64,000 nucleotides of DNA from Achatina immaculata (Eukaryota > Mollusca > Gastropoda > Stylommatophora > Achatinidae). The stretch covers positions 37,708,234 to 37,772,233 of the forward strand of contig CM019707.1 in assembly GCA_009760885.1 (NCBI GenBank). Direction: 5' to 3'. Within the stretch, counting starts at the first letter, position 1. Each line of letters opens with the position of its first letter. The notes below the pieces were generated by a model. That model ran no database searches, had not been told where the DNA came from, and saw only the letters and a program-made list of their open reading frames with translations. A program made the translations under genes and the position numbers. Shown here in pieces: positions 8,152 through 51,214 of this stretch.

Positions 8152-9604
8152 CACCGTGAGCTGGTACATCTATCTAGCGGGCAGCCTTGTGGTGTGAGGT
8201 GGTACATCTATCTAGCAGGCAGCCTTGTGGTGGTGAGCTGATACATCTATCTAGCAGACAGCCTTGTGGTGGTGAGCTGATACATCTATCTAGCAGACAG
8301 CCTTGTGGTGTGAGGTGGTACATCTATCTAGCAGACAGCCTTGTGGTGTGAGGTGGTACATCTATCTAGCAGACAGCCTTGTGGTGTGAGGTGGTACATC
8401 TATCTAGCAGGCATCCTTGTGGTGTGAGGTGGTACATCTATCTACCAGGCACCCTTGTGATGTGAGATGGTACATCTATCTAGCGGTCACCCTTGTGATG
8501 TGAGGTGGTACATCTATCTAGAATTCAGCCTTGTGGTGCGAAGTGGTACATCTATCTAGCAGACAGCCTTGTGGTGTGAGGTGGTACATCTATCTAGCAG
8601 GCAGCCTTGTGGTGTGAGGTGATACATCTATCTAGCAGGCAGCCTTGTGATGTGAGCTGGTACATCTATCTAGCGGTCACCCTTGTGATGTGAGGTGGTA
8701 CATCTATCTAGAATTCAGCCTTGTGGTGCGAAGTGGTACATCTATCTAGCAGACAGCCTTGTGGTGTGAGGTGGTACATCTATCTAGCAGGCAGCCTTGT
8801 GGTGTGAGGTGGTACATCTATCTAGCAGGCAGCCTTGTGGTGTGAGGTGGTACATCTATATAGCAAACAGCCTTGTGGTGTGAGGTGGTACATCTATCTA
8901 GCAGGCAGCCTTGTGGTGTGAGGTGGTACATCTATCTAGCAGACAGCCTTGTAGTGTGAGATGGTACAACTTTCTAGCGGGCACCCTTGTGGTGTGAGGT
9001 GGTACATCTATCTAAAAGGCACCCTTGTGGTGCGAAGTGGTACATCTATCTAGCAGACAGCCTTGTGGTGTGAGGTGGTACATCTATCTAGCAGACAGCC
9101 TTGTGGTGTGAGGTGGTACATCTATCTAGCAGGCAGCCTTGTAGTGTGAGGTGGTACATCTGTCTAGCAGACAGCCTTGTGGTATGAGGTGATACATCTA
9201 TCTAGCAGGCAGTCTTGTGGTGTGAGGTGATACATCTATCTAGCAGGCAGCCTTGTGGTGTGAGGTGATACATCTATCTAGCAGGCAGCCTTGTGGTGTG
9301 AGGTGGTACAACTATCTAGAAGGCAGCCTTGTGGTGTGAGGTGGTACATCTATCTAGCAGGCAGCCTTGTGGTGTGAGGTAGTACATCTATCTAGCAGGC
9401 ACCCTTGTGGTATGAGGCGGTACATCTATCTAGCTGGCAGCCTTGTGGTATGAGGCGGTACATCTATCTAGCAGGCACCCTTGTGGTATGAGGTGGTACA
9501 TCTATCTAGCAGGCACCCTTGTGGTATGAGGCGGTACATCTATCTAGCAGACAGCCTTGTGGTATGAGGTGGTACATCTATCTAGCAGGCACCCTTGTGG
9601 TGTA
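8152..9604. repeat. 38-bp minisatellite, array 1 (about 38 copies)
   Basis: Head-to-tail units built on GGTACATCTATCTAGCAGGC and CCTTGTGGTGTGAG, with point variants such as AGACAG/GGCAGC/GGCACC. It is not open in any frame. The same unit forms a second array at 11458-11907, with the same flank on its right. Confidence 0.97.
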
Positions 9605-10334
9605 TTAAAAAAAACAGACGGAGATATAGAAGCAGATAGTCATGCTGATGTGATGAAACTACGTGCTAGTTTGATACAGGTTCTTAGGAGAGCTAGTAAA
9701 TAGATGTCGATACAGTGAGTAGAAAACTGAAAGATCTGAACTTATATTTCATTGACAATTCATGAAAGATACCAACTGTTGAACGAGGTCCAGGTAGACC
9801 AGACTAATCTGCCTATTAAGACTGAATTCGTTGGTGGCTCCTGAGAGAGAAGGAGATAAACTGTTCTATAAAGTTCGTGTAATTCATTTTCTTATGCCTA
9901 ATAAGATTCAAGGTTGTTGTAGTTTATGACTTTTAAAAGGAACTGGTGGAAATTATACGTCCAAGTTAGAGGAGACAACTGTGTAAATAAACCTGCGTAT
10001 TTTCATAACAGACAAACGGACGTTACCGTATTTGAAATTGTGTAAGAATTTATCTGTCTGTGCGATGGTATACTAGTTGTGTAAGACGTTTCCAATAGGG
10101 AGACTTTCTGTGTAACAATGTATAAAACAACAACTATAACATAACAGACTTTGTCCCGACATTTAGGAGGAGACGACTAGGTAAGTCCGTGGCAACAACG
10201 CCGAGTGCTGAATGCTGACGTCTTTGGCTAAAGATAAGTTATATGTAGATACCGTGACTAATTGTAGCAAAATACGACGTACACTAGAGACGTGGAAAAA
10301 CAAACGGACAAAATGACACATATGTTATCACAGT
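9605..10334. other. macrosatellite shared block 1 (copy 1)
   Basis: About 730 bp of non-repetitive sequence, repeated almost exactly at 11908-12640. It contains AATAAA near 9985, TATAAAAC near 10121 and a GTGGCAACAACGCC segment near 10190. Its place between a satellite and a gag-like frame suggests the 5' leader or terminal region of an LTR retroelement, but no paired TG...CA ends were found. Confidence 0.5.
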
Positions 10335-10828
10335 TAAATAAAACAATCAGTTACTTAAAGAGCAAAATAAAACAATCAGTTACTTAAAGAGCAAAATAAA
10401 ACAATCAGTTACTTAAAGAGCAAAATAAAACAATCAGTTACTTAAAGAGCAAAATAAAACAATCAGTTACTTAAAGAGCAAAATAAAACAATCAGTTACT
10501 TAAAGAGCAAAATAAAACAATCAGTTACTTAAAGAGCAAAATAAAACAATCAGTTACTTAAAGAGCAAAATAAAATAATCAGTTACTTAAAGAGCAAAAT
10601 AAAACAATCAGTTACTTAAAGAGCAAAATAAAACAATCAGTTACTTAAAGAGCAAAATAAAATAATCAGTTACTTAAAGAGCAAAATAAAACAATCAGTT
10701 ACTTAAAGAGCAAAATAAAACAATCAGTTACTTAAAGAGCAAAATAAAACAATCAGTTACTTAAAGAGCAAAATAAAACAATCAGTTACTTAAAGAGCAA
10801 AATAAAACAATCAGTTACTTAAAGAGCA
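10335..10828. repeat. 29-bp minisatellite, array 1 (about 17 copies)
   Basis: Units built on AAAATAAAACAATCAGTTAC plus TTAAAGAGC. 29 is not a multiple of three, so changes in copy number would shift any frame through it. It lies just upstream of the gag-like relic in both macro-units. Confidence 0.97.
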
Positions 10829-10858
10829 TCAGTAGCAGACCGGGCTGTATGACACGAC

Positions 10859-11272
10859 ATGGACATTTTTGACTGTCAGTCTTACAAATTGATGGGATGG
10901 ATTAAGAGCGTTGAAAAATAAGCTTACTTAGCCAGACTCAGCGACAGTGACACAAAACTGATGTCGTTCAGATCAAGTAGAGTCTCAGATAAACATTCAC
11001 AGAAAGCTCACCTCCCACCCGTCAGAGACATGGAAGGAATTAAATCAGGATTTAACACGACATTATAGGGACATTATACTGACACACAACATGCATTTGC
11101 TTTACTGAAACAACAACAACAACAACATGAAAATGTATGGGCTTACGCCAACAGATGCTTAGACTTAGTAGCAGATGCTTTTCCAGACATACACACAGAT
11201 GAAATAGCCATGAATCGACAGCTAATAGAGATTTTTGTACGAACTCAGCACCATTTACTCACCCTCTCACTC
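10859..11272 (+). pseudogene. retrotransposon gag-like relic (copy 1)
   Basis: A broken frame reads MDIFD-QSYK--GWIKSVEK, stop, AYLARLSDSDTKLMSFRSSR-VSD, then after disruption DTQHAFALLKQQQQ and AYANRCLDLVADAFPDIHTD. This order of blocks resembles the capsid region of LTR-retrotransposon Gag proteins: a hydrophobic WIKSVEKYA-like helix, an SR-VSD block, a HAFALL block and a YA-R helix. Stops and a missing middle make it non-functional. CA-rich simple sequence follows to 11457. Confidence 0.6.
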
Positions 11273-11457
11273 TAACACTCACACAGAAACGCTCATTCAT
11301 ACACACTCACTCACTCAAAAAACACATACTCATTCACTCAAAAACTAAAACTCTCACAGACTCACACTGTCACACTACCACACTCAGACACACACAGGAC
11401 AACACAGAAAAAACTCGAACAGGACACGTTATATAAGCTTATAACAAATGATATGTG

Positions 11458-11907
11458 AACATCTATCTAGCAGACAGCCTTGTGGTGTGAGGTGGTACAT
11501 CTATCTAGCAGGCAGCATTGTGGTGCGAAGTGGTACATCTATCTAGCAGGCAGCCTTGTGGCGTGAGGTGGTACATCTATCTAGCAGGCAGCCTTGTGGT
11601 GTGAGGTGGTACATCTATCTAGCAGACAGCCTTGTGGTGTGAGCTGATACATCTATCTAGCAGGCAGCCTTGTGGTGTGAGGTAGTACATCTATCTAGCA
11701 GGCAGCCTTGTGGTGTGAGGTGGTACATCTATCTAGCAGGCAGCCTTGTGGTGTGAGGTGGTACATCTATCTAGCAGACAGCCTTGTGGTGTGAGGTGGT
11801 ACATCTATCTAGCAGGCAGCCTTGTGGTGTGAGGTGGTACATCTATCTAGCTGGCAGCCTTGTGGTATGAGGTGGTACATCTATCTAGCAGGCACCCTTG
11901 TGGTGTA
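11458..11907. repeat. 38-bp minisatellite, array 2 (about 12 copies)
   Basis: Same unit as 8152-9604. The left junction is at GAACATC|TATCTAG, where the tail of macro-unit 1 and the satellite unit share ACATC; this microhomology may mark the recombination point. Confidence 0.95.
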
Positions 11908-12640
11908 TTTAAAAAAAAACAGACGGAGATATAGAAACAGATAGTCATGCTGATGTGATGAAACTACGTGCTAGTTTGATACAGGTACTTAGGAGAGCTA
12001 GTAAATAGATGTCGATACAGTGAGTAGAAAACTGAAAGATCTGAACTTATATTTCATTGACAATTCATGAAAGAGAAAGAGACCAACTACTGAACGAGGT
12101 CCAGGTGGACCAGACTAATCTGCCTATTAAGACTGAATTCGTTGGTGGCTCCTGAGAGAGAAGGAGATAAACTGTTCTATAAAGCTCGTGTAATCCATCT
12201 TCTTATGCCTAATAAGATTCAAGGTTGTTGTAGTTTATGACTTTTAAAAGGAACTGGTGGAAATTATACGTCCAAGTTAGAGGAGACAACTGTGTAAATA
12301 AACCTGCCTATTTTCATAACAGACAAACGGACTTTACCGTATTTGAAATTGTGTAAGAATTTATCTGTCTGTGCGATGGTATACTAGTTGTGTAAGACGT
12401 TTCCAATAGGGAGACTTTCTGTGTAACAATGTATAAAACAACAACTATAACATAACAGACCTTGTCCCGACATTTAGGAGGAGACGACTAGGTAAGTCCG
12501 TGGCAACAATGCTGAGTAATGCTGACGTCTTTGGCTAAAGATAAGTTATATGTAGATACTGTGACTAATTGTAGCAAAATACGACGTACACTAGAGACGT
12601 GGAAAAACAAACGGACAAAATGACACATATGTTATCACAG
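11908..12640. other. macrosatellite shared block 1 (copy 2)
   Basis: Near-identical to 9605-10334 apart from scattered substitutions and small indels (for example AAGAGACC against ATACC near 12080). Confidence 0.9.
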
Positions 12641-12960
12641 TTAAATAAAACAATCAGTTACTTAAAGAGCAAAATAAAACAATCAGTTACTTAAAGAGCA
12701 AAATAAAACAATCAGTTACTTAAAGAGCAAAATAAAACAATCAGTTACTTAAAGAGCAAAATAAAACAATCAGTTACTTAAAGAGCAAAATAAAACAATC
12801 AGTTACTTAAAGAGCAAAATAAAACAATCAGTTACTTAAAGAGCAAAATAAAACAATCAGTTACTTAAAGAGCAAAATAAAACAATCAGTTACTTAAAGA
12901 GCAAAATAAAACAATCAGTTACTTAAAGAGCAAAATATAACAATCAGTTACTTAAAGAGC
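12641..12960. repeat. 29-bp minisatellite, array 2 (about 11 copies)
   Basis: Same unit as 10335-10828 with fewer copies, as expected from unequal exchange or slippage. Confidence 0.96.
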
Positions 12961-12991
12961 ATCAGTAGCAGACCGGACCGTATGACACGAC

Positions 12992-13392
12992 ATGGACATT
13001 TTTGACGGTCAGTCTTACAAATTCAAGGGATGGATTAAGAGCGTGGAAAAATAAGCTTACTTAGCCAGACTCAGCGACAGTGACACAAAACTGATGTCGT
13101 TCAGATCAAGCAGAGTCTCAGATAAACATTCACAGAAAGCTCACCTCCCACCCGCCAGAGACATGGGAGGAATTAAATCAGGATTTAGCACGACATTATA
13201 GGGACATTATACTGACACACAACATGCATTTGCTTTACTGAAACAACAACAACAACATGAAAATGTATGGGCTTACGCCAACAGATGCTTAGATTTAGTA
13301 GCAGATGCTTTTCCAGACATACACACAGATGAAATAGCCATGAATCGACAGCTAATAGAGATTTTTGTACGAACTCAGCACCATTTACTCAC
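12992..13392 (+). pseudogene. retrotransposon gag-like relic (copy 2)
   Basis: Second copy of the relic at 10859. Its start is slightly better preserved (MDIFDGQSYKFKGWIKSVEK before the stop). It carries the same stops, so the damage came before the macro-duplication. Confidence 0.62.
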
Positions 13393-13582
13393 CGTCTCAC
13401 TCTAACACTCACACAGAAACGCTCATTCATACACACTCACTCACTCAAAAAACACATACTCATTCACTCAAAAACTAAAACTCTCACAGACTCATACTGT
13501 CACACTACCACACTCAGACACACACAGGACAACACAGAAAAAACTCGAACAGGACACGTTATATGAGCTTATAACAAATGAT

Positions 13583-33237: not shown

Positions 33238-33368
33238 TCATTTCTCTGTTCTTGTTAGAAATTCGTTTCTGATTTCTTGAAACAAAACTGGATCTAGGAG
33301 AACTTCAATGGCTGTTTGTGCCAGAGCTTTGGCCTGGTTCTGTGTGGCCGAGTGAGCAGCCTTGGAAC
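33238..33368 (-). CDS. PM20D2: M20 gene, last coding exon (shortest form)
   Basis: Residues 358-400 and stop: [20 protein letters not shown], then [20 protein letters not shown] and TEK. I chose the acceptor at 33368/33369 (CATCCATCCACAG|GTTCC) because it gives the same spacing to QAKALAQTA as in known family members. Five further identical-type acceptors lie upstream in a 54-bp array, all in the same frame with no stop between. Splicing to them would add 18, 36, 54, 72 or 90 residues. The most upstream one (33638) has the best pyrimidine tract. Confidence 0.9.
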
Positions 33369-36300
33369 CTGTGGATGGATGTAAGTTAGAAGGTGTCAAC
33401 AGACAGTGAGCAGCCTTGGAACCTGTGGATGGATGTAAGTTAGAAAGTGTCATCAGAGAGTGAGCAGCATTGGAACCTGTGGATGGATGTAAGTTAGGAA
33501 GTGTCATCAGAGAGTGAGCAGCCTTGGAACCTGCGGAAGGATGTAAGTTAGAAAGTGTCATCAGAGAGTGAGCAGCATTGGAACCTGTGGATGGATGTAA
33601 GTTAGGAAGTGTCATCAGAGAGTGAGCAGCCTTGGAACCTGTGGAAGGATGTAAGTTAGAAAGTGGTGAGAGAGAAATAAAACGATAGATGTAACACTAC
33701 GTTTTGTTGTCAAGATGGGCAGAAGATATGATCATATGTGAACATTTAGTCTCCAAATGCTTGTATTGCTAAAATGAGATGTAATGAGAAGCTAAGATGA
33801 AGGAGAAGACCCAAGAATGAGATGAAATGACTTGCTGTCTAAGTGATCTAAATATCGGAATCTTCTGGTCGTTCCAGACTTAAAAACAGGTACCTGATTC
33901 TAGTGATAGGGAAAAAAGTTTCTAGAAGGTAAGAATATCTACCTGCAGAGAAATGTACTTCTGAATCCACATTTACTTATATCTATCAGTGACTGACTGG
34001 TTAAATCTGTCAGTCACTGACTGCTTACATCTGTCGGTCGCTGACTGTTACATGTGTCACCCGCTGACTGGTTACATGTGTCAGTGACTGATAGGAGATT
34101 GTGATATCATCTAAAGCAAGAGACAAACTGGGCGTTGCCTCAACTCACAAAGAGAGGACGGGGGACAAAGTGATAAAAGATAAAAATGAGAAGGAAAATG
34201 AAATCGTGAAATCAAAGAAACAGTGAAAAAACCATTCTGGAGATGACCACGCCCACTTTCTCACGTTGATATCAGTAATATTTCTCTCCAGACAAAGATT
34301 GTCATAAATCTAGGTCCGGTCAAAGATTGTCATGAATCTAGATCCGAGCAAAGATTGTCATGAATCTGGGTCCGGTCAAAGATTGTCATGAATCTAGGTC
34401 CGGTCAAAGATTGTCATGAATCTAGGTCCGGTCAAAGATTGTCATGAATCTAGGTCCGGGCAATGGAATCTAGGAAGTATCCTATCAATATCCATCCATT
34501 ATTTGCTGGACCGGATAGCGTTGACGACCATGCTTCATCATTTTACGTGATTATGGGTGTTTCTGATAAACTGAAATTCTTTTTTTCCCATCCAACTCGA
34601 CCATTTCATTTAATTTGTTTTTTTTTTTTATCTTGGCCTTCTTCTCCTTCTTTATCCCTTGAGTTTTCCAGTGACTGGCAAATTCTTCGTCTTCTCGTGA
34701 CTTGTCCAGGAAATTTTGACCGTCTTTTTCTGATCATCCTAACTAGTTTTCGTTGTTCTGAAACTTCTTTGAGGACCTCTTCGTTTGTTTTTCCTGTCTG
34801 CCCGGAGTATTTGTTGTCTTTCTCCAGAATAGCATTCATTTTCTGAAGATAACGGAGAGGAAAACAAACCCATTTCCTAGATTTCGTTGTTTAGTCATTT
34901 TGAATGGAAATACTGATAGCAAAGGTGTCTTAGCCATGTTGAAGGGAACGCAGCTGTTTATGGGAGGCAAATTATTGTGAGGGGGCCCAGGGTTTATGAG
35001 AGGCAAATTATTGTGAGGGGGCCCAGGGTTTATGAGAGGCAAATTATTGTGAGGGGGCCCAGGGTTTATGAGAGGCAAATTATTGTGAGGGGGCCCAGGG
35101 TTTATGAGAGGCAAATTATTGTGAGGGGGCCCAGGGTTTATGAGAGACAAATTATTATGAGGGATCCTAGGGTTTATGAGAGGCAAATTATTTTGAGGGG
35201 GCCCAGGGTTTATGAGAGGCAAATTATTGTGAGGGGGCCCAGGGTTTATGAGAGGCAAATTATTGTGAGGGGGCCCAGGGTTTATGAGAGGCAAATTATT
35301 GTGAGGGGGCCCAGGGTTTATGGGAGGCAAATTATTGTGAGGGAGCCCAGGGTTTATGGGAGGCAAATTATTGTGAGGGGGCCCAGGGTTTATGGGAGTG
35401 TCCCGAGTGCAAAGACGTTAGTCTCAGATTATACATTATAGTTTACCGATATGGATGGCAGACTAGAAACTATCGTCTCTTACAGATATGGATGGCAGAC
35501 TAGAAACTATCGTCTCTTACAGATATGGATGGCAGACTAGAAACTATCATCTCTTACAGATACGGATTCAATTCAATTCAAGTGCCATGCCACGTGGCGT
35601 AGGCGATCATTTCTCTCCACAATTCCCTGTCTTTAGACTTGATTATGAGATCCACCAGTGAATTCCTTCCTAGCCACACTGACAGCCCATCCAGTAACTT
35701 CTCTCTCTGTCTTGCTCTGCCTCTTCTTCTTTCAATTTTTCCACTTGCCACAATGTGTTCCAATTTTCCTCTTCCCAGGAAATGTCCTATTAATCTCGCT
35801 TGTCTGCCTCTGATCTTTGCTATAATTTGCTTTTTATCTTAAGACTTCTTCGTTGGTTTTCTTAGCTGTCATTGGTACCTTCAACATCCTTCTTATGGAC
35901 CACATCTCCATGACCTCCATTTCTCGCTCTACTCTCTTATTTATGGACCATGCTTCACATCCATAAAACAAAATTGGCTCCATGTAACATTTAAGTACTC
36001 GGAATCTTGTTTCCATTGATATGGATCTGTTGCACAAGATGTTTCTCATTGTCTGGAATGCTGACTTGGCCTGAACACGTCTGCTTTTTATTTCATTGTG
36101 ACATTTCCCATCAGTTGTTATAGTCGTTCCTAAGTACTTGAACCTATCAACTTGTTTCAGATTTGTGCCATGGATGGTAATGCTACATTTTGGTAGTATT
36201 CTTTTCTTTGAGATGACCATCACTTCAGTCTTCTTTATTTTTGCTTTCACGAACCACGATGTCCAGAAGAGCCTGTAGCTCCCCTTCACTTTTAGCAATC

Positions 36301-37648
36301 AGGACAGTGTCCTCATAGGATGATATCCTGATGGATAGGAGACTAGAAACTATTATCTTCTCTTACAGATGCCCCAAATGAAGAGCTAGTAGAGCAGAGT
36401 TCAAGTCTGGTCTCTGGTGATAAGACGCCTTCTACAAGTCTGTCGTTATTCCCAACCCTTAGCCCAACCCGGAGATTTTCTCATTCAGACTACCACGACA
36501 CCTACAGCTGAGAATAGTTGTTATGATGATGATGATGATGATGATGATATCAATTACCTGCAAGGGGAGTGAACTCTTTACTATGTGGAGCAGCCTCTCC
36601 GATCTTATAGCACGGGTGAATGGCTGGGACGACGTAGCTAACATTGCCCATGTCTGTGGAACCAAGTGGCACAGAATCTTCACCTACGGTTGCTCGGTCC
36701 GGCTCCAGACCTTCCATGTGTTTGTCGTATATTTTAGCCAACGCACGATTTGTAATCAGATCGGCATAGAACTTTGAACTCCAGTCCACATCAACCTGTG
36801 ATGTACCGACTTGACATTTTAAAATTATGGATCTAATTTACGCCGTGAATATATTTTTAACCCTTTCGAATCCTTTGTCAAACATATTTTTCGGTAAACC
36901 AATTTGGGTATTTTATTCCTGCGTTACGTATCGCTTTGATAGACTAAAAAAACATCGTTATGGAGAATGTATTGAAATTTAGATTAATGTCAGTTTCTGT
37001 TCTAAATTTTACTTATGAAAATCTCATAGCAAAAGCAGAAAAAGGGAAATGATAAATGATAGAATTCCAATCAAATAAAGAAAGCAAGTTAAATGTTGAT
37101 GAAGATTCATTGTTACCGAAAAAGATGGAGAAAAATAGATAAATGATATTAAAATTTAGTTGGGGCGTTTCGTAAGTTAATTTATCAGATTATTTTATAA
37201 ATCATCAGAAATAGATGAAAATATAATTTTCTATAGATGTTATCTCTTCATTTAGGTTTCATCTCTTCATTCATATTTAATCTCCTCTCTCGTGTTTCAT
37301 CTCTTTATTAACGTTTTGTCTCTTCACTCGTGATTTATCTCTTCCTTAATGTTTTGTCTCTTCACTCGTGATTTATCTGTTCCTTAATGTTTTGTCTCTT
37401 CACTCGTGGTTTATCTCTTCCTTAATGTTTTGTCTCTTCACTCGTGGTTTATCTCTTCCTTAATGTTTTGTCTCTTCACTCGTGGTTTATCTCTTCCTTA
37501 ACGTTTTGTCTCTTCACTCGTGATTTATCTCTTCCTTAATATTTAGATCTTCATTTGTCTTTTTTTTTTCAGTGTGTGTCTACAAATATTCTAGCTCTAC
37601 TTGGACTTTAGGCGGAGAATCTGTTCAAGCTCATCTACCAGGGGAGCC

Positions 37649-37680
<32 letters not shown>

Positions 37681-37912
37681 GATGATAGACTACTGAGCTT
37701 ACCGTACACCCACTAGCAAGAGCCGCGCCCTGGAAGCAGCCGTCCACCTTCTTACACAGCGCCTTCAGCTCGTCCAAGCAGTCCTCCCGGACAATGTACT
37801 CCAGCTTGGACAGATCTGGGATGATGTTTGGCTTCACGCCGCCATTACTGATAATACCTGGAAATTAATGCGAAGCAGCAACGAAAGATAGTTTCTCCTT
37901 GATCTCTCCTTC

Positions 37913-41496: not shown

Positions 41497-44400
41497 CCTT
41501 AAGTGCCCAGGGCACATGGGGCTTCCGCAAGGATTTTCCACAAATGCCTGTCCTTCGCCTTTTTTTCTGCTCTTGCCCAGGTGAGCCCTCTATTGCTCAA
41601 CATCCTTTCTGTTGTTCTTCTCCATGTCTCTTTTGGTCTACTGGCCTACCCTTACTTCTGTTCCCCTGTGGTGTCCATCTTAGTGCTATTTTTGGTAGTG
41701 AGTTGTCAGTCATTCGGAGCACATGTCCCAACCATCGCCAGCGTCTTTCCTCAATAATTGTTGTCAGTAGTTTCATCTGCATTTCTGCTAATAAGATGTT
41801 ATTTCTTATGGTGTTTGGCCAAAATATTTTTCTAATTCTTCGTAAACATTTAGTTTGGAAAGAATTCAACTTGTTTTCTATGGTTTTGGTGATTTTCCAG
41901 CATTCACTTCCATAGAGTAGTACACTTAGAACATTACTCTTAAATATCCTGATTTTCATATTTATGCTTAGTTTTTTTTATTTCCATACAGTCTGCAGCA
42001 TTGCAAAAGCCTGGTTTGCTCTAGTAAGTCTGCTGTTGATGTCCTCTGTGCTGTCTCCATTTTCTACTACTCTGCTGCCAAGGTATACAAATTCGTTGAC
42101 CTCCTCCACTAACTTGTTATCTACTCTGAGTACATTTCTGTTGTTCACATTTTGTTTCATTAACTTTGTCTTTCCTACGTTGATCTTTAGTCCTATGTTG
42201 TTTGCATTCTGAGTTAGCTTGTTTATTTTATCTTGCATATCTTTGTGGCTGCTTGATAGAAGACAAATGTCATCCACATCTTCTAACAATATCTCAGCGT
42301 TATTCCTAGAGAATTTAACGTATATTAACGGAATTCTTGCACGGACTTTGTCATGTCTTGTCTCCTACATCGCCTTTGTACTATAAGATGACGCTCTTTA
42401 CAGCCGATACTGTCGAAATGTCCAGACACAGCATCGTGTTGTCTTGGGAGCGATATTATAGCAGCTATTTTTTTTTCGGTCCCTAAGTACAGAATAAAAG
42501 GCAAGCACCTGTTACTGGGGGTACCAACGAAAATGTGGGACAGGGTCTTGATCAGCTAAGGCTCGCCAACCCTGACGATAACAGGTCAGCTATGAGTGTC
42601 TGATGTCCAAAGCGGACGGCGTTTTTGTTTCTATGAACTGTGTAAACATTAAAATAAAGAAAGCTATCCCATACAAATCAAATATTGAGCAAAACACGGT
42701 TGTCCCCACTTATAAATCACGTAAACAGGCAGCCACGTTTGTCGGTTACCATGGACACGTGAGGTTGGCTTCATCTGTTGCCTCATGGAAGAGATGTTGC
42801 TGTAGGCCTGGACTGCGGCGTCAAGGGCATTAACTCCTTCCCATGGATAGGCCGAGGCGTGAGATCCCTTGCCGTGGTAGGTCACGTTCACGCTGGGAAG
42901 ATACAAATTAAATGTCCTTTATGGGCCAAAGTTTTCAACCTTCACAGAGAGCTAAGATGATCGTGTTGGAAGGGCTTTGTAACTATGAAGGCCAGGGAAC
43001 CAAAGCTAATCCAGACCCTACCTAATCTCGCTTGATACAGTCAAGTTTCTTCTACTTGATTGACAGGATGTCCCTCGAGGAAGTGGAATCTGCCGGAGAA
43101 GATTGTTTCAGTGGCCCATTCAGGTATTTGTGGAAGGCACCGCTGTTGCCAACTCCACATCCAGCTCCATGTTTGTTATTCGGCTTCTTCAGCTCGACAG
43201 TTGTTCAGAAAATAACTCTGCAATTTCAGGCAGGTTCTGAAATAATAACAGCTACAACAACAACAATAGAAACAACAACACAATAACGACAGTAATCAGA
43301 AAAGCTATGCCAACAGAGTGTAGATATTTACTGAAATGTAGATTTTCCACTCTTGTGATGGATGATATCATTCAGTCATTTGCACGTCCCTTTCGGAACT
43401 TTGTCTCCCTAACAGCTCTCCTGTAGGCCTCTCGACTGTAAGCAAGATGGCCTGCTACTGATTCGTCCATTAGCAGACCATCAACGATGTATTGTAGCCA
43501 TCTTCGCTTTGGTCTTCCTCTCTTTCACACCCTTACGTCATGCAAGTGTATACTGAAAACAAATTTACCAGGAATATGACAATAGACAGAGGTCCTCAAG
43601 GAGAAAGTAGCACAAACCGAGAAATACCTGGAGATTTGCCTGTGATATAACACAATTACAAGGAAAACACGACGAGAAATAGCAGCGTGTATGCTACTAG
43701 CTTATCTAGCTTATAGCTCTTCAAAAAAATAAAACAACTAAAGAAGCTGTGGAGAGGAACAGACAGAACTACAAAAATAAGATTTTTAAGGGCATGCATT
43801 TTCCCATGGCAACATATGCCTGTGAGACCTGGACACTTAACAAAACAGCTGAGAAACACATAAATGCCTTTGAATGTAAATGCTACAAAAGAGTTCTTCA
43901 GATATCGTGGACACAAAAAAAAGAACAAATATATCCATACTACAAGAACTTAATGTTGAAGAAGGTTGGCTTGTAAGGAAGATTAAACAGAGAAAGCTTA
44001 AATATTTTGGACATATTAAACGTCATGATAATTTAGAGAATACAGTCTTGGAAGGATGTATAATGTGAAATAGGAAGAGAGCTAGACCAAAGCGAAGATG
44101 GCTGCAAGACATCGTTGATGATCTGCAAATGGATGCATCAGCAGCAGGGCATCTTGCTTATAACCGAGAGGCCTACAGGAGAGCTGTTAGGGAGGCAAAG
44201 TTCCGCAAGGGACATGCAAATGACTGACTGACTGACTGACTAAGGCTACTAACAGCGTTTTTTTCTGAAGTATGGGTTTCTATGATGATAATGATGATGA
44301 TGACAGTGATTCGTCTCACGAGTTAACAGCCAAAGATCTCATGTTGGTGCAGTTAAGATTGGCCGGGTGGCACATCAAAGCGAAATCGATGTCGTCAAAA

Positions 44401-47400
44401 GCACCCGCGTTGATGAGGTCAATTTTCCCGCCTCCACTTTCTTCAGCTGGGGTGCCCAGAACAGTCACCTAGTGGTCAATGATACACGAGATAGTCTGTG
44501 ATACATGTCAGTGATACATGGGATAGTCATTGATACATGAGATAGTCAGTGATACACGGGATAGTCATTGATACATGGGAAAGTCCGAAATATAAGCCAA
44601 AAATTAGAGATACATGTAATAGAAATATAGGGGCTAGTAAGATATATATTTATATAGGATAATCATAGATACACAGGATAGTCAGAGATATGTAGGACAG
44701 AGATACTTGTGATATCCAGAGGTACAACAGAGTTAGGGATATATGGTATAATTAGAGATATAAAAGATAGAGATATGTGGGATAGTCAAAGATATATGGG
44801 ATAGTTAGAGATATAAAAGGTAGAGATATATGGGATAGTCAGAGATGTACAGTTAGTCAGAGACATGTGGGATAGTCAGATATATATGTGATAGTCAGAG
44901 ATATATGGGATAATCAGAGATACAACAGATCCCATATGTGGAATGGTCAGAGATATAAAAGATAGTCAGGGACAAATGAGATAATCAGAGATATATTGAA
45001 TAGTTATAAATACAAGAGACATTCAGAGATATATAGAATAGTTGGAAATACAGTGTATGGAATAGTTAGAGATATATGGAAGAGGTATAGATACAAGAAA
45101 TGTTCAGAGTTATAGGGGATAGTCAGTGAAAGCAAAATAGTCTATATAGGATAGTTAAAGATACAAAAGATAGTGACACAGGGAGTCGTCAGACACACAA
45201 GAGACAGAGATAGCAATAGACAGAGATATACAGTCAGACATTACAGGGGATCCTCGGTGAGACAGTAATAAACAATCAGAAAATTCCACCAGTTAACACT
45301 CAGAAGATACCACTAATTACGGCTAAAAAGACACCACTAATTAACGCTCAAAAGACACCAATAATTAACATTCGAAAGACGCCACGAATTGACACTCAAA
45401 AGACACTGCTGGTTAATTTTTCTTCTTCAAAAACTGATTGCTGCAAAATATAATTTTGCGCCTGATTCATTCATTCATTCATTTGCATATCCCTTGCGGA
45501 ACTTTGCCTCCCTAGCAGCTCTCCTGTAGGCCTCTCGGTTGTGAGCAAGATGGCCTGCTGCTGATGCATCCATTTGCAGATCATCAACGATGTCTTGCAG
45601 CCATCTTCGCCTTGGTCTTCTTCTCTTTCTTTTTCCCAGTATGTACCCTTCCAAGACGGTTTTCTCTAGATTATCATGCCGCCTGATATAACCACTAATT
45701 TCCGATATGCTGTTTCAAATGACTCTACGATTTCGTTTTGAAGATCAAAAGACGTCACTAACTCTGTTTTGCATTTCAGCTGACATTGGAGACTGTCTGA
45801 AGAATGTGTGAGAAGAGCTGGAGAGACAAAATAAAATCTTGTCAAAAAAACGTAAGAGAGAGCAATGTACTTTCATAGGACATGCAATGAGAAAAGGGGG
45901 CGTTAAAAATATTATAGCAACAGGAAAAATAGAGGAAAGAAGAGCCAGTGGAAGACCAAGAGAAATGATACTGGACAGTCTGACGGGATCCCCCGTGTGG
46001 TACCCGGGATCTGCAAAGAATAGGACCACTGTACCCTACCACGCATGATCGTAAAAGGCGACTAAGAGGGTTCGGCATAGGGCCAGCAACCCTATCTGGT
46101 AAAAAAAAACTATCAGACTGCTACAGAAACGGAAGCAAGGGAAAAAACAAATGCAGGTGGAAGGAGAAATGCGTATCAGGAAACTGAGCCCATGAAGGTT
46201 GTGGATGAAAGCCAGCCACTGGAAGTCCCCAGCCCGACTGCAGACCTCCTGGAACCTAAACACAAGATGCAAATAGGCAGCTGGAATGTAAGAACACTTA
46301 ACCAGACTGGAAAACTAGCACAAACCATCAAGGAAATGCACAGATACAAACTAGACATACTAGGAATACAAGAAGCAAGATGGACAGGACAAGGCAGAAG
46401 GAAATTAACAACACAGCACACAGAAGATACAATAATATGGTCAGGTAAAGAAGATCTTCATGAAGGAGGAGTAGCATTAATTATAACAAAAGAAGCATCA
46501 AGAGCATTGCTGAAATGGACCCCTATAAATGAGAGATTATTATATGCACGGTTCAACTCAAGATTCACGAAGCTGTTTATTATAGTTTGTTATGCACCAA
46601 CAGAAGCAGCTGAAGAGGAATTAAAAGAAGAATTTTACAACAGCCTCCAAGCCACAGTAGAAACAATACCCAAGCATGATATGCTACTCATCTTGGGCGA
46701 CTTCAATGCAAAAGTAGGTGAAGGAAATGAAGATAGAAGAATAATCATGGGAAGAGAAGGAATCGGAGAAATAAATGAAAATGGAGAAAGACTGTGCAGT
46801 TTCTGTGAAGAAAACATAATGACTATCGGGGGGACAATTTTCCAACACAAAAACATCCATAAGGTGACTTGGAGGTCCCCAGATAAAACCACAGAAAACC
46901 AAATCGATCACATACTAATAAACAACAAGTGGAAACGGTCACAACAAGATGTGCGAGCAAGGAAAGGAGCAGATGTAGGAAGTGATCACAACCTTCTGGT
47001 AGCAAAAATAAAACTAAAATTAAGGAAAGCCAAAATCGGAGAACACAGAAAGATACATTTTGATACAAGAAAACTGAAAGACCAGCAAACAAGAAATGAA
47101 TTCTCAATAGTACTTAAGAACCGCTTCAGTGTCCTACAAGACGAAGCAGAAATTTCCATACTAGAGTTCAATAAAACACTACAGGAAACAGCAAAAGAGG
47201 TGCTGGGATATCGGAAAAGGAGAAAAGAGGAATGGATAAGCAAGACCACATGGGAAAAGACAGAGCAAAGAAAAGAAATCAAGAAAAAATTACTGAACAC
47301 CAAATCACCACGGCTTAAAGAACAAGTTTTAAGTAATTATGCACAAAAAGACAAGGAAGTGAAGGAATCATGCCGTCAAGATAAACGTCAATACTATGAC

Positions 47401-50400
47401 AACTTAGCACAAACAGCAGAGAAAGCAGCATATACAAATGACATGAAAACCATATACAAAATCACAAAGCAGATGACAGGTAACTTCAACACAAGATGTG
47501 AAAGTGCAGTAAGGACACAAAATGGACAACTGGTCAGTGAAGAAAGAGAAAAAATTGAAAGATGGAGGGAACACTTTAACACCCTACTAAACAGAACACA
47601 AGCAGCACAAACAATAGACATACCTGAAGCAAAAACGGAACTAAACATCAATACAGGACCAATAACAATAAATGAAGTAAAGGAGGCGATAAAGAAGCAA
47701 AAATCAGACAGGGCACCAGGTGAAGGTGAAGTGACTGCTGAGATGTTGAAAGCAGAAGAAACAGAAACACCAAAACAACTTTGCCGGATATTACAACAAA
47801 TTTGGGATCTAGAAAAAGCCCCAGAGGAGTGGAAAACTGGGCTTATAGTAAAACTACCAAAGAAGGGTGACCTCAGAGATCGCGGGAACTGGAGAGGCAT
47901 TACCCTACTGCCACTCACCAGTAAAGTATTTTGCAGAATAATCATCAACAGAATTGTACCAACACTTGAGGAAAAACTTCGGAAAGAGCAGGCAGGATTT
48001 AGGAAAGGAAGATCATGCATAGACCACATATTTGTACTTAGACAAATATTAGAACAGGCAAATGAGTGGCATAGCACAACATATGCATTATTCATAGATT
48101 TTGAGAAAGCCTTTGACAGTGTCAACAGAGATGCACTGTGGAAAATCCTAAGATGGCATGGCCTCCCCCATAAATAGTTAATGTAATCAAAGCCCTATAC
48201 GAGGGTTTTCAGTGCAAAGTTATCTGTGGAGAACATACCTCCAGCAGCTTTAGGGTACAAACAGGAGTGAAACAGGGATGTGTACTATCACCAACATTAT
48301 TTATCTTGGTAGTAGACTGGTTAATGAAGGAGGCAACATCAGACAAACGCAGAGGATTACAATGGACCCTTGACACAGTGCTGGAGGACCTTGACTTTGC
48401 GGACGACATTTGTCTATTATCAAGCAGTCACAAAGATATGCAAGATAAAATAAACAAGCTAACTCAGAATGCAAACAACATAGGACTAAAGATCAACGTA
48501 GGAAAGACAAAGTTAATGAAGCAAAATGTGAACAACAGAAATGTACTCAGAGTAGATAACAAGTTAGTGGAGGAGGTCAACGAATTTGTATACCTTGGCA
48601 GTAGAGTAGTAGAAAATGGAGACAACACAGAGGACATCAACAGCAGACTTACTAGAGCAAACCAGGCTTTTGCAATGCTGCAGACTATATGGAAATAAAA
48701 AAAAACTAAGCATAAATATGAACATCAGGATATTTAAGAGTAATGTTCTAAGTGTACTACTCTATGGAAGTGAATGCTGGAAAATCACCAAAACCATAGA
48801 AAACAAGTTGAATTCTTTCCAGACTAAATGTTTACGAAGAATTAGAAAAATATTTTGGTCAAATACCATAAGAAATAACATCTTATTGGCAGAAATGCAG
48901 ATGAAGCCACTGACAACAATTATTGAGGAAAGACGCTGGCGATGGTTGGGACATGTACTCCGAATGACTGGCAACTCACTACCAAAAATAGCACTAAGAT
49001 GGACACCACAGGGGAACAGAAGTAAGGGTAGACCAAAAGAGACATGGAGAAGAACAACAGAAAGGATGTTGAGCAATAGAGGGCTCACCTGGGCAAGAGC
49101 AGAAAAAAAGGCGAAGGACAGGCATTTGTGGAGGACCCTTGCGGAAGCCCCATGTGCCCTGGGCACTTAAGGTTCAGAGAGAGAGAGAGTCTGACGGGAT
49201 GGTGTGAGAGGAGATCACCAACTGAGCTGATGGCCTGCATGAAGGATCATGTACTCTGGAGAAGCATAATAGCCAACGCCAGTCGGCACGGCACCTGATG
49301 GTGATGATGGTGATTTCAACTGAAGTAATATTTAACACAAACACACACACACACATAAAAAACACTGCTAAAAAATGAACACTCAAAAGACACTTATAAT
49401 TAGACTAAAAGATTACCGTTCCTATTGGTTGTCCGTGTCTCTCCATCGTGGCCTTCACGGCCAGAGCGGCGGCCACCCCCAGCTGTGCTATCAGGTTGTG
49501 CCCACAAGCGTGCCCTATCTCAGGCAGGGCGTCGTACTCGCAGAGAAATGCCACGTTCAGGGGCCGTAACTCTGCTGAACTGTCACCTTAAATTTGGATG
49601 AAATGTCAGTTGTGGATTGAGCAGTGGTGTTCTTATAGTAGGTTTAGCTTCAAACCTGTGCTCGCTGTTCTTATAGTAGGTTTAGCTTCAAACCTGTGCT
49701 CGTTGTTCTTATAGTAGGTTTAGCTTCAAACCAGTGCTCATGTAAACAGCCTCTCTATTTTTTTTAGCTTTGGATTGAATCCAAAATTTATACTCAGTTA
49801 CTGATCCCGTTAGAAAAAAAGGTAATAATAAGACAGTATGACTGAACTGACTGTAAAGTTTACGAGCACAATTGTTACTGACTGTAAGTTTGACTTTAAC
49901 AAGAGATAAATTGTTACTGATCGTAGAGCTCAATTCAACAAGAGATAAACTGTTACTGATTTCAGGGCTCACTTTAACAAGAGATAAACTGTTATTGATT
50001 GTAAAGTTCACTTTAATAAGAGATAAATTGTTATTGATTGCAATGCTTACTTAAACAAGATTGCAAAACTTACAATAACAACTTATAATGATTGCAAAGT
50101 TCACTTTAACAAGAAATGACCTGTTATTGATTGTAAGTATCACTTTAATAAGAGATAAATTGTTACTGATTACAATGATTATTTTAACAGGAAATAAACT
50201 GTTATTGACTGTAATGCTTACTTTAACAAGAGGTAAGCTATTATTGGTTGTAATGCTTACTTTAACAAGAGGTAAGCTATTATTGGTTGTAATGCTTACT
50301 TTAACAAGAGGTAAGCTGTTATTGGTTGTAATGCTTACTTTAACAAGAGGTAAGCTATTATTGGTTGTAATGCTTACTTTAACAAGAGATAAAATGTGTT

Positions 50401-51214
50401 TGCTGAACAGAGGTATATCAATGAAAAATAATCTTCTTCTTCTTCTCCGTTCGCAACAATGAAAAATAATAACAAGAAGCGTTTTTAAAATCTGAAATGT
50501 AAAAGCATGTCAACTACAACTTTAATATCTGACAGATAAATGAAATGACCACTACATTTAAACATCTGGCACACAAACAAAATGATTACAACAGCTAAAC
50601 AAACATAATGATTACTCCAGCCAAACATCTAACAAACAAAATGATTGCAACAGCTGAACAAACATAATGAATATTACAGTCAAAAATCTAACAAATATAA
50701 TGATTACAGCAGCAAAACATGAGACATACAAACACAATGATTACAACAACCAAACAACTGGAATACACACTCTGCTTACAACAGCCAAACATCGGGTATA
50801 TTAACAAAATGACTACTATGGCCAAACATCTGGCATACAAATGCAATAATTACTATAGTCAAAAATTTAATATACAAACACAACATTTACTGCAGCCAAA
50901 CAAATAATATACAAATACAACGATTATAACAACCAAACATCTAACATACAAACACAATGATTACAACACTCCTACAACTTATTCATACAAACCTGACCTG
51001 CCAAACTCCAGGATGCTCTGAAGGCGGTGCTCAAACTCTTGTAGTGTGGCTCCACGTGGAACCCATGCTCTTCTAGAAATCTGGTCAGAGTTTCGTGTGC
51101 GATCTTCTCCTGGAAAAACAGTTCCGGCTGTCTCCAGATTGTCTGACTTAACTCCAGCAAAGACTCGGACTCCAAGTCCACAGTCTCGCAGGCTGTCTGG
51201 AAAAGCTGCTCCAT
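33238..51214 (-). CDS. PM20D2: PM20D2-like M20 peptidase, whole gene (7 coding exons joined)
   Basis: Joined exons on the minus strand: 51214-50998, 49586-49417, 44468-44320, 42892-42750, 37857-37703, 36795-36558, 33368-33238 (1203 nt, 400 residues plus stop). All introns are GT-AG and phases agree (1, 0, 2, 1, 0, 1). Motifs in order: CEYDALP (residues 88-94) and HACGHN (98-103), which carry metal ligands; GTPAEE (134-139), with the catalytic Glu pair; CHP (162-164); HASAYPWEG (190-198), in the dimerisation/lid domain; [10 protein letters not shown] (323-332) and IHP (337-339); a late His-containing block at 349. This is the layout of PM20D2, reported to cleave beta-alanyl-lysine and related dipeptides as metabolite repair. 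Length is slightly under the roughly 436 residues of the human protein, mostly at the N-terminus. No signal peptide is visible, so a cytosolic enzyme is expected. The subfamily call is from motif memory, not a search. Confidence 0.88.
33354..33677 (-). repeat. 54-bp tandem array duplicating a 3' splice site (6 copies)
   Basis: Unit starts on the plus strand are 33354, 33408, 33462, 33516, 33570 and 33624. Read on the minus strand, each unit holds a branch-point-like CTAAC, then TTACATCCATCCACAG (or CATCCTTCCACAG) and the first 17-18 exon bases GTTCCAAGGCTGCTCACT, with small variants. The two units starting at 33462 and 33570 have GTTCCAATGCTG. The sixth unit is preceded by TTTCTCTCTCACC, a better pyrimidine tract than in the internal units. 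Confidence 0.96.
33976..34095. repeat. degenerate repeat of about 30 bp in intron 6
   Basis: Three to four units on the theme CAGTCACTGACTG...TACATGTGTCA. Sequence 33678-33975 shows nothing else. Confidence 0.8.
34293..34460. repeat. 28-bp minisatellite, 6 copies, intron 6
   Basis: Units CAAAGATTGTCATGAATCTA plus GGTCCGGT, nearly identical. Confidence 0.95.
34560..34850 (-). pseudogene. LINE C-terminal fragment in intron 6
   Basis: The minus strand reads [20 protein letters not shown] and [17 protein letters not shown], the basic post-RT domain of an endonuclease/RT LINE; a Lys-rich run follows. No target duplication was identified. Confidence 0.6.
34958..35395. repeat. 36-bp minisatellite, about 12 copies, intron 6
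   Basis: Units on GGGTTTATGAGAGGCAAATT and ATTGTGAGGGGGCCCA. Both strands are open because 36 is a multiple of three; the Pro/Asn-rich periodic frame is not supported as coding. Confidence 0.95.
35449..35560. repeat. 37-bp tandem repeat, 3 copies, continued at 36328-36367
   Basis: Units GATATGGATGGCAGACTAGA plus AACTATCGTCTCTTACA. A further diverged unit lies at 36328-36367, beyond the LINE, so the LINE inserted into this array. Confidence 0.9.
35561..36327 (-). mobile_element. LINE 3' half inserted into the 37-bp repeat, antisense
   Basis: The minus strand reads [45 protein letters not shown] and [11 protein letters not shown], then [20 protein letters not shown] and a terminal HGT. This is the region after the RT catalytic box plus the basic tail. 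The 3' tail is a GAATT-type repeat (ATTCAATTCAATTCAA on plus). One frameshift occurs near 35830. Confidence 0.85.
36518..36549. repeat. (ATG)n microsatellite just inside intron 6
   Basis: On the gene strand this is (CAT)n starting about 11 bases after the exon 6 donor. Sequence 36368-36517 before it has no clear feature. Confidence 0.9.
36558..36795 (-). CDS. PM20D2: M20 gene, coding exon 6
   Basis: 238 nt, residues 279-357 plus one base. Starts [20 protein letters not shown] and contains [19 protein letters not shown] and [11 protein letters not shown]. These are the C-terminal catalytic motifs, with the late His supplying the last metal ligand in this family. The acceptor is CATCACAG|GTTGAT and the donor CTTGCAG|GTAATT, followed within about 11 bases by (CAT)n. 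Confidence 0.95.
37295..37545. repeat. 38-bp minisatellite, about 6.5 copies, intron 5
   Basis: Units TGTCTCTTCACTCGTGATTT plus ATCTCTTCCTTAATGTTT. The 36796-37294 stretch between exon 6 and this array is AT-rich with nothing recognised. Confidence 0.93.
37645..37686. repeat. (ATG)n microsatellite just inside intron 5
   Basis: On the gene strand, (CAT)n beginning near +19 of the intron after exon 5. Confidence 0.9.
37703..37857 (-). CDS. PM20D2: M20 gene, coding exon 5
   Basis: 155 nt, residues 227-278. Contains [20 protein letters not shown] and [12 protein letters not shown], closing the dimerisation domain and returning to the catalytic domain. The acceptor is AATTTCCAG|GTATT and the donor TGTACG|GTAAGC. 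A (CAT)n tract begins near +19 of the following intron. Confidence 0.95.
37890..37965. repeat. (TC)n tract beside the exon 5 acceptor
   Basis: Pure TC over most of its length. On the gene strand this is (GA)n, so it does not strengthen the polypyrimidine tract of exon 5. Confidence 0.93.
37966..38396 (+). mobile_element. CR1-like LINE, strongly 5'-truncated (copy E)
   Basis: Holds the last 30 or so residues of ORF2 ([17 protein letters not shown]) and the 3' UTR ending AAATAAAGATCAATCAGTCA. TC repeat occurs on both sides, so the insertion target was a TC microsatellite in intron 4, antisense to the gene. Confidence 0.9.
38410..38760 (-). pseudogene. mariner-type transposase N-terminus, decayed
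   Basis: The minus strand reads [28 protein letters not shown], stop, [19 protein letters not shown] and, after a frame change, [15 protein letters not shown]. This is the double helix-turn-helix and linker pattern of SETMAR/mariner transposases (FKRFK-G---EDDPR-GRPS-ST-D--VERVR). It has stops and frameshifts, and the catalytic DDD/DDE part was not found. It lies antisense to the plus strand, hence sense to the M20 gene, in intron 4. Confidence 0.75.
38761..39221. other. intron 4, unassigned with a (GTGCAT)n tract
   Basis: A GCATGT hexamer run is at 38937-38963. No other feature seen; the start of the mariner element may be here. Confidence 0.4.
39222..39395. repeat. 73-bp near-perfect inverted repeat (hairpin)
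   Basis: Arms 39222-39294 and 39323-39395 are reverse complements at 71 of 73 positions, with a 28-nt loop. The inner arm ends are TTTCATACAT and ATGTATGAAA. In intron 4 it would form a long stem in the pre-mRNA. No TIR-type target duplication was seen around it. Confidence 0.93.
39750..39990. repeat. degenerate repeat of about 26 bp (52-bp double unit)
   Basis: Alternating AGTAATCAATCATCCAACCA and AATCACCCAACCAAAGTATA units. Sequence 39396-39749 has short dispersed motifs shared with 29840-29910 and nothing else. Confidence 0.85.
40449..41035 (+). mobile_element. family A LINE 3' end with open frame and target duplication
   Basis: Reads [77 protein letters not shown] and a GHAKE end, with no internal stop. 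It ends in a GGAATGAATGA tail. A perfect 13-bp duplication ACTAAAAACATAG lies at 40436-40448 and 41036-41048. This is the best preserved family A 3' end in the window. Sequence 39991-40435 to the left has only an orphan CR-like tail trace near 40330. Confidence 0.93.
41063..41441 (-). mobile_element. family B LINE 3' end, antisense
   Basis: Starts with (ATC)n and the complement of the family B end (GTGCCGTGCCGA...), then the region of [18 protein letters not shown] with an inserted CT tract near 41305-41345. A family C LINE is inserted at its distal end. Confidence 0.85.
41454..42278 (-). mobile_element. family C LINE, 5'-truncated, antisense
   Basis: The minus strand reads [20 protein letters not shown] through [32 protein letters not shown] and [20 protein letters not shown] to the end; its (AG)n tail is (CT)n at 41454-41494. 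A 12-bp duplication TCTTCTAACAAT flanks it (41442-41453 and 42279-42290). It stops within the RT catalytic box, so it never carried a full RT. Confidence 0.92.
42498..42600 (-). repeat. partial copy of the (GAA)n-tailed dispersed family
   Basis: The minus strand matches ATCAGGGTTGG...CAGCTGA-CAAGACCCTGT and GTAACAGG of the elements at 52190, 54655 and 59180. Sequence 42291-42497 beside it has nothing recognised. Confidence 0.75.
42750..42892 (-). CDS. PM20D2: M20 gene, coding exon 4
   Basis: 143 nt, end of codon 179 to the first base of codon 227. Contains [20 protein letters not shown] and [12 protein letters not shown], the dimerisation-domain insert. Its HASAYPWEG block is diagnostic for PM20D2 against other M20D amidohydrolases. 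The acceptor is TATCTTCCCAG|CG and the donor CCATG|GTAACC. Confidence 0.95.
43375..43535 (-). mobile_element. family A LINE 3' end, antisense fragment
   Basis: Complement of KFRKGHA and RRRWLQ-type end sequence in intron 3. The 42960-43374 stretch to its left is otherwise unassigned. Confidence 0.8.
43735..44242 (+). mobile_element. family A LINE 3' end, sense, with (TGAC)n tail
   Basis: Reads [40 protein letters not shown] and the [11 protein letters not shown] end in shifted frames. It closes in TGACTGACTGACTGACTGAC rather than the GAAT tail of the 40449 copy. The tail ends about 80 bp from the exon 3 donor. Confidence 0.88.
44320..44468 (-). CDS. PM20D2: M20 gene, coding exon 3
   Basis: 149 nt, residues 130-178 plus two bases of codon 179. 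Contains [20 protein letters not shown], whose Glu-Glu pair is the catalytic base and metal ligand, and FALMCHP. The acceptor is CCACTAG|GTGACT and the donor AACTC|GTGAGA. Residues after CHP ([14 protein letters not shown]) are less family-like than the rest. A (CAT)n repeat begins about 16 bases after the donor. Confidence 0.93.
44477..45240. repeat. degenerate short-unit array (about 20-25 bp), intron 2
   Basis: Repeats of GATAGTCAGAGATATATGG and GATACATGGGATAGTCA with much divergence, beginning within 10 bp of exon 3's acceptor. Confidence 0.85.
45275..45420. repeat. 32-bp repeat, 4-5 copies
   Basis: Units on ACACTCAAAAGACACCACTA plus ATTA. One related unit (CACTCAAAAGACACTTATAA) sits at 49379-49399, beside the exon 2 donor, so the LINEs between the two parts probably inserted into one array. 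Confidence 0.88.
45470..45700 (-). mobile_element. family A LINE 3' end, antisense
   Basis: (ATTC)n tail followed by the complement of [12 protein letters not shown] and RRRWLQDIV end sequence, the same end as the 40449 copy. Confidence 0.85.
45760..45989 (+). mobile_element. family B LINE, left part (interrupted)
   Basis: Reads [10 protein letters not shown] and [20 protein letters not shown], then [20 protein letters not shown] up to the point where the family C LINE enters. Its continuation is at 49201-49315. Confidence 0.9.
45990..49187 (+). mobile_element. nearly full-length family C LINE (EN/RT), nested
   Basis: 3.2-kb insertion flanked by a 13-bp duplication AGTCTGACGGGAT (45977-45989 and 49188-49200). 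The 5' UTR of about 200 bp includes CGCATGATCGTAAAAGGCGA. The frame starts at 46192. Endonuclease motifs are [34 protein letters not shown] (about 46690), NQIDHILI and [12 protein letters not shown] motifs are [11 protein letters not shown] (about 48100), [12 protein letters not shown] and FADDICLL (48396). The tail domain has [11 protein letters not shown] and [11 protein letters not shown]. Only two 1-nt frameshifts (about 48174 and an A-run near 48698) break about 990 codons. It ends GGTTCAG(AG)n. The endonuclease resembles the CFDP2/BovB type, so an RTE-clade label is likely but not proven. Confidence 0.93.
49201..49315 (+). mobile_element. family B LINE, right part
   Basis: Resumes with GTGTGAGAGGAGATCACCAA directly after the target duplication and ends GGCACCTGATGGTGATGATG. 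Joining 45989 to 49201 restores a normal family B 3' end. Confidence 0.92.
49417..49586 (-). CDS. PM20D2: M20 gene, coding exon 2
   Basis: 170 nt, residues 73-129. Contains [20 protein letters not shown], the strongest family signature: the CEYDALP loop and the Cys/His metal site of the M20D type. The acceptor is TTTAAG|GTGAC and the donor AACG|GTAATC. It joins exon 1 in phase 1 to restore a Gly codon. GC content is clearly higher than in the AT-rich introns around it. Confidence 0.95.
49629..49742. repeat. 38-bp repeat, 3 copies, intron 1
   Basis: Units GTTCTTATAGTAGGTTTAGC plus TTCAAACCTGTGCTCGCT. Confidence 0.93.
49868..50400. repeat. 39-bp minisatellite, intron 1
   Basis: Degenerate units on the left grade into five almost identical 39-bp units at 50205-50395 (CTTACTTTAACAAGAGGTAA plus GCTATTATTGGTTGTAATG). 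Confidence 0.93.
50480..50975. repeat. degenerate repeat of about 37 bp up to the exon 1 donor
   Basis: Repeated theme ACAAACACAATGATTACAAC with AGCCAAACATCTG. The array reaches within about 25 bp of the exon 1 splice donor. Confidence 0.82.
50998..51214 (-). CDS. PM20D2: M20 gene, coding exon 1
   Basis: Encodes residues 1-72 and the first base of codon 73: [20 protein letters not shown] onward, then [20 protein letters not shown] and [14 protein letters not shown], the helical start of the catalytic domain. The donor is GGCAG|GTCAGG. I chose the ATG at 51214 because G at -3 and +4 gives a good start context. A pyrimidine-rich acceptor (TTTCCTTCCTCAG) ends only 2 bases upstream, so this may be the second transcribed exon after a 5' UTR intron. 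An in-frame ATG 16 codons upstream (51262) would read through that acceptor and is less likely. Confidence 0.88.

Follow-up and report, generated by a model that had tools for sequence, protein, structure and literature searches.

In the gastropod Achatina immaculata, a 54-bp minisatellite lies across the boundary between intron 6 and exon 7 of the PM20D2 gene, and all six of its units carry a 3' splice site. This array is most likely an acceptor-side mirage, i.e. a minisatellite-like tandem duplication of an intron-exon boundary. The kind is already known; here it is found outside the lancelets, and all its acceptors are in one open frame. The window, by which we mean the whole stretch of DNA that was analysed, is 64,000 nucleotides long. 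We think it fairly probable that the gene is mostly spliced at the innermost acceptor of the array, with in-frame leakage possible.

The host gene and its array

The coding sequence of PM20D2 is found on the minus strand (51214-33238). When its seven coding exons are joined over GT-AG introns, using the innermost acceptor, a protein of 395 residues is obtained, see Table 1. Judging from its sequence this protein is PM20D2, a xaa-Arg dipeptidase of the M20 family, with the activity being predicted. Two Pfam domains score above their cut-offs: the M20 domain PF01546 (45.5 bits, cut-off 24.6) and the M20 dimerisation domain PF07687 (45.2, cut-off 21). Further, the structure of human PM20D2 (7yh4) aligns to residues 6-392 with an E-value of 6.6e-117.

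As a set of homologues we used the best 120 of 7658 matches to the PM20D2 product. Among the matches listed, heterobranch gastropods are the closest by identity: Physella acuta (P0002) is best with 60% identity over 98%, followed by Lymnaea at 57%, Aplysia at 55% and Biomphalaria, with a few others, at 54%. The match that ranks first in this list by E-value, from Porites (P0001), is 53% identical, yet over 71% of the query.

Table 1. Positions in the window of the PM20D2 exons and of the repeated acceptor region; for each unit the acceptor AG, the first exon base and the length of the joined product are given.
Feature	Positions	Strand	Basis or remark
PM20D2 exon 1, coding part	50998..51214	-	joined gene model
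PM20D2 exon 2	49417..49571	-	joined gene model
PM20D2 exon 3	44320..44468	-	joined gene model
PM20D2 exon 4	42750..42892	-	joined gene model
PM20D2 exon 5	37703..37857	-	joined gene model
PM20D2 exon 6	36558..36795	-	donor CAG|GTAATT (36558|36557) pairs with the acceptor array
PM20D2 exon 7, innermost acceptor to stop	33238..33368	-	joined model and homology
54-bp minisatellite over the intron 6/exon 7 boundary, 5.9 copies	33350..33665	-	TRF, 93% matches
Unit 1 (outermost), branch-point/acceptor block	33639..33665	-	AG 33639-33640; first exon base 33638; 485 aa
Unit 2, branch-point/acceptor block	33585..33611	-	AG 33585-33586; first exon base 33584; 467 aa
Unit 3, branch-point/acceptor block	33531..33557	-	AG 33531-33532 (CCGCAG); first exon base 33530; 449 aa
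Unit 4, branch-point/acceptor block	33477..33503	-	AG 33477-33478; first exon base 33476; 431 aa
Unit 5, branch-point/acceptor block	33423..33449	-	AG 33423-33424; first exon base 33422; 413 aa
Unit 6 (innermost), branch-point/acceptor block	33369..33395	-	AG 33369-33370; first exon base 33368; family-spaced 395 aa

A preliminary description of this DNA, made from its letters, had reported an array of 54-bp units that each hold a CTAAC motif, an acceptor and the first bases of the exon. TRF and motif counts agree with this description, and six units are found. Each unit consists of 36 bases on the intron side and 18 exon bases, the latter reading GTTCCAA(G/T)GCTGCTCACT. The motif CTAACTT occurs six times, 54 bp apart; in every unit the branch-point-like A is at -18 and the bases between it and the acceptor contain no further AG, and AG|GT is present in six of six. 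The acceptor motif that had been given for the whole array is less uniform than described: an acceptor is shared by every unit, but the exact letters CATCCATCCACAG are found in only four of the six, while the outermost unit has CATCCTTCCACAG and the third CATCCTTCCGCAG. At its outer edge the array gives way to unique intron, upstream of about -28 in unit 1; at its inner edge the real exon continues beyond base 18 of unit 6.

The same description had placed all six acceptors in one frame with no stop between them. This is indeed the case, as the products obtained by joining each acceptor to exons 1-6 (395-485 residues) are all open. Up to five extra blocks of 18 residues could be added to the enzyme in this way. 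By splice position the blocks would follow G353 and not residue 358, where they had been placed before, but the two placements are equivalent because each block starts GS(K/N)AAH. The array's own open frame, 152 aa long, has no match in Pfam.

The other splice sites of the gene show two further features. An AG|GT proto-splice context is seen at four of the six acceptors of the gene (33368, 36795, 37857 and 44468). On the donor side, three of the six introns, 6, 5 and 3, have a (CAT)n run on the gene strand in the 60 nt that follow their donor (36523-36548, 37649-37686 and 44291-44302), and these are three of the seven exact CAT/ATG runs of four or more units in the window. By chance this would have a probability of about 8e-7 if the strand must be the same and 6e-6 if it may be either, both values being uncorrected for the pattern having been noticed first. 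The YCAY counts at +7..+66 are 8, 11 and 8 at these donors, versus 0-1 at the other three. Both the place and the motif are those that we take to be typical of NOVA-type splicing enhancers; instead, the runs could be the consequence of a bias in repeat insertion.

Chance and the history of the array

An array like this one is far more than chance would give. Its position is a different matter: the 43 merged arrays whose period is 10 or more take up 23.4% of the 64-kb window, and when they are shifted circularly, 84% of the positions place one or more of the six acceptors of the gene inside an array. The actual overlap is limited to a single one of the 12 splice sites and, in the coding sequence, to 19 bases. 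We therefore reject the view that the coincidence of array and acceptor is surprising, since it is expected at this array density.

The open frame was also considered as an argument for selection, and rejected. The chance that a period is a multiple of three and the frame open is about 0.07 (27/67 period rows times 28/162 frames), a rough value given that the rows overlap. An alternative calculation, one third times the 0.356 obtained from random 36-base pieces of the same intron, gives 0.12 for an array that is both in frame and open. The best reading is that ordinary minisatellite turnover placed the array at the splice boundary.

How the array grew can be followed from the differences between its units. 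Units 2 and 4 are identical, and the dimer formed by units 1-2 differs from that formed by units 3-4 by one mismatch in 108. From this comparison of sequences, a 108-bp dimer has probably been duplicated recently. The near-identity of the dimers suggests a recent expansion and probable length variation, and the length of the array probably varies between individuals. In one alignment frame units 1 and 6 diverge most among the six units available, largely because of unique flank; in a second frame unit 1 and unit 3 differ by one base. These unique-flank edges at units 1 and 6 are the trace left by a tandem duplication across the boundary. The proposed course starts with the tandem duplication of a 54-bp stretch in which the branch point and acceptor of intron 6 were followed by the opening 18 bases of exon 7. 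Unequal exchange or slippage would then have enlarged the array, the latest step being the gain of a 108-bp dimer.

Repeats and insertions are also seen in other parts of the window. A 38-bp array (8156-9603 and 11459-11906), a 29-bp array (10336-10828 and 12643-12961) and a 23-bp repeat (11301-11344 and 13431-13474) follow each other in the same order twice, which suggests that within 8156-13474 a segment of a few kb was duplicated, the copy numbers of its repeats differing between the two. Intron 2 of the gene holds, on the plus strand, a long LINE-type endonuclease/reverse transcriptase frame (46081-48698), and another frame runs from 48174; the 120 relatives listed for the LINE protein (46258-48177) are 43-60% identical to it. 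Finally, positions 674-773 are exactly 100 N, probably a scaffold gap.

Choice among the six acceptors

It had been claimed before that the innermost acceptor restores the spacing of the protein family, and the homologues bear this out. From the conserved histidine H344, which we presume to be a metal ligand, to the start of the AKAL motif there are 21 residues in 120 of the 120 homologues listed. This spacing is obtained with the innermost acceptor only, and none of the 120 has an insert at the site of the array. H344 is invariant in 25 of 25 aligned sequences, and the insert would sit nine residues after it. Further, when residues 350-450 of the 485-aa product were used as a query, none of 7504 candidates drawn from 5.8 billion scored at E<=1. 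This is a weak negative, as the gene's own product is not among the matches listed; it means that no catalogued protein reached by the search has the blocks, and says little on this species.

In the favoured reading the innermost acceptor would be the one spliced to exon 6 in most transcripts, with the other five units treated as intron, by analogy with the amphioxus mirages described below. The array would persist because a wrong junction keeps the reading frame, so that 18-residue blocks would be added at a hinge and the message would not be destroyed; leakage would then be mild.

To describe acceptor strength we used pyrimidine measures, which are crude, and compared eleven acceptors: the six in the array and five elsewhere in the gene. 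Over 40 nt the outermost acceptor has a pyrimidine fraction of 0.80 and a longest run of 10, both the best of the eleven, versus 0.68-0.70 and 6-7 for the other five units. The earlier claim that the outermost acceptor has the best pyrimidine tract thus stands at this length, but when the 20 nt next to the acceptor are counted, unit 3 equals it (both 0.75; the remaining four units 0.70). The innermost acceptor has the lowest 40-nt fraction (0.68), shared with three other units, and the shortest second run; in U fraction units 2 and 4 (0.28) are lower than the innermost (0.30). Its pyrimidine fraction is not below those of the gene's five other acceptors.

Masking of the outer acceptors by RNA structure was considered and is not supported: in predicted foldings the acceptors are 0.62-0.71 unpaired, and none of them is hidden. 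As the branch point and the AG are intact in all units and no acceptor is hidden, local features do not explain why the innermost one would win, and exon context would have to do so. No measure applied here gives the innermost acceptor a clear advantage.

Several acceptors might instead be used in parallel; the result would be a ladder of PM20D2 proteins in which the number of added blocks goes from 0 to 5, with the range set by the length of the allele. All six acceptors are complete, in frame and predicted to be accessible; measured over 40 nt no tract is as good as that of the outermost, the innermost is no stronger than its five copies, and the recent duplication of the dimer suggests instability. 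The protein might also tolerate the blocks. The Physella homologue P0002 has an AlphaFold model (mean pLDDT 92.1, best Foldseek match human PM20D2 7yh4) in which the insertion point corresponds to G357-T358, between the helices 350-356 and 359-381. If this model is a guide, an insert in the helix-helix hinge might fold out of the way, though it is nine residues from the conserved histidine.

However, a ladder of forms is difficult to reconcile with a His-AKAL distance that is constant in all 120 homologues listed, with an insert so close to a histidine that is invariant in all 25 aligned, and with the search in which no protein with such blocks scored at E<=1. In addition, the amphioxus mirages are, in the parts of the literature covered here, reported to be regularly spliced, and the in-frame openness has a chance of about 0.07-0.12. 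On balance we regard parallel use as a tentative possibility. We are more doubtful about a copy-number-dependent isoform generator, in which the length of the array would set the share of PM20D2 with 0-5 blocks and individuals would differ in it.

It is improbable, in our judgement, that the outermost acceptor dominates, being made first and having the best tract. Its 40-nt fraction and its run, unsurpassed among the eleven acceptors, agree with such dominance, but the protein would then normally carry a 90-residue insert in a segment whose length is constant in 120 of the 120 homologues listed.

Recursive splicing would remove the array unit by unit, with AG|GT junctions rebuilding donors and the message being the same at any copy number. 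CAG|GT is indeed present at the acceptor of every unit and exon 6 ends in CAG, but CAGGTTCCA as a donor agrees with the consensus in 5 of 9 positions, below all six real donors (6-8 of 9), and 54 nt is short for an intron; we give this very little credence. Tandem arrays are prone to assembly artefacts and the window has a 100-N gap elsewhere, but a wrong copy number or a misplaced array is hardly credible here, given that the units differ at several positions and both edges enter unique intron and exon, and a wrong copy number would leave the kind of structure unchanged.

Comparison with other repeats at splice sites

The reading with splicing mostly at the innermost acceptor has its closest parallel in amphioxus. 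According to the portions of two papers used here, mirages in these animals are minisatellite-like tandem duplications of the intron-exon boundary, found in Adh3, the globins BflGb6 and BflGb9, TnC and PGBD5 (PMC3087553, PMC3902484). In BflGb6, each unit of 150-160 bp holds the 3' end of the intron together with the first part of exon 2; the two haplotypes have 6 and 3 units, and evolution inside the array is concerted. The Adh3 units are 10-72 bp (excerpts of PMC3087553). The Adh3 and RT-PCR data given there suggested that regular splicing is undisturbed (PMC3087553, in part), and the Adh and TnC mirages are said to yield no aberrant mRNA (a passage of PMC3902484). For PGBD5, a database model takes repeat sequence as an exon of 57 residues, which the authors omitted, mRNA support being wanting (same source, in part). 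The precedent of PGBD5 is one that is argued and not RNA-proven.

As in the amphioxus mirages, the unit of the PM20D2 array spans an exon-intron boundary and carries AG/GT signals. It differs from them in being found in a gastropod and in its unit of 54 bp, which is within the Adh3 range but below the unit length of BflGb6. In addition, a branch-point motif and an acceptor are present in every PM20D2 unit, while many but not all amphioxus repeats have such signals, as far as the excerpts describe them. All PM20D2 acceptors are in one open frame.

Another multiplied splice site is found in man: a minisatellite in the gene 6-16 (IFI6/G1P3), reportedly described by Turri in 1995, gives multiple splice donor sites. 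It resembles the PM20D2 array in that a splice site is multiplied, but donors and not acceptors are concerned, and the gene is a different one. In human paralogues from segmental duplications, internal tandem repeats alter the exon-intron structure and activate cryptic splice sites, according to parts of PMC2812944. Minisatellite expansion thus changes exons there too, but those parts do not describe repeated acceptors at one boundary, and the words "acceptor" and "mirage" are absent from the main text of that paper. In the Rogers model, as discussed in a section of PMC3087553, introns are gained by tandem duplication of AG|GT proto-splice sites. Each PM20D2 unit has an AG|GT as in that model, but no new intron is evident and the AG|GT is a poor donor. 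In C. elegans, regions of alternative splicing have an excess of the minisatellite CeRep25B in their vicinity (PMC4039745). A search of the literature by title and the start of the abstract found no case of a minisatellite-duplicated splice site in a mollusc, which does not prove absence.

With the PM20D2 array, mirages would extend from the lancelets, where the named cases are seen, to a mollusc. This would suggest that minisatellite-rich genomes in general place tandem arrays across splice sites. The six near-identical in-frame acceptors, each with its own branch point, form a natural test of how one of several equal 3' splice sites is chosen by the spliceosome, outermost first or anchored at the exon. 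If the outer acceptors are used, the array would be a length-polymorphic source of protein isoforms.
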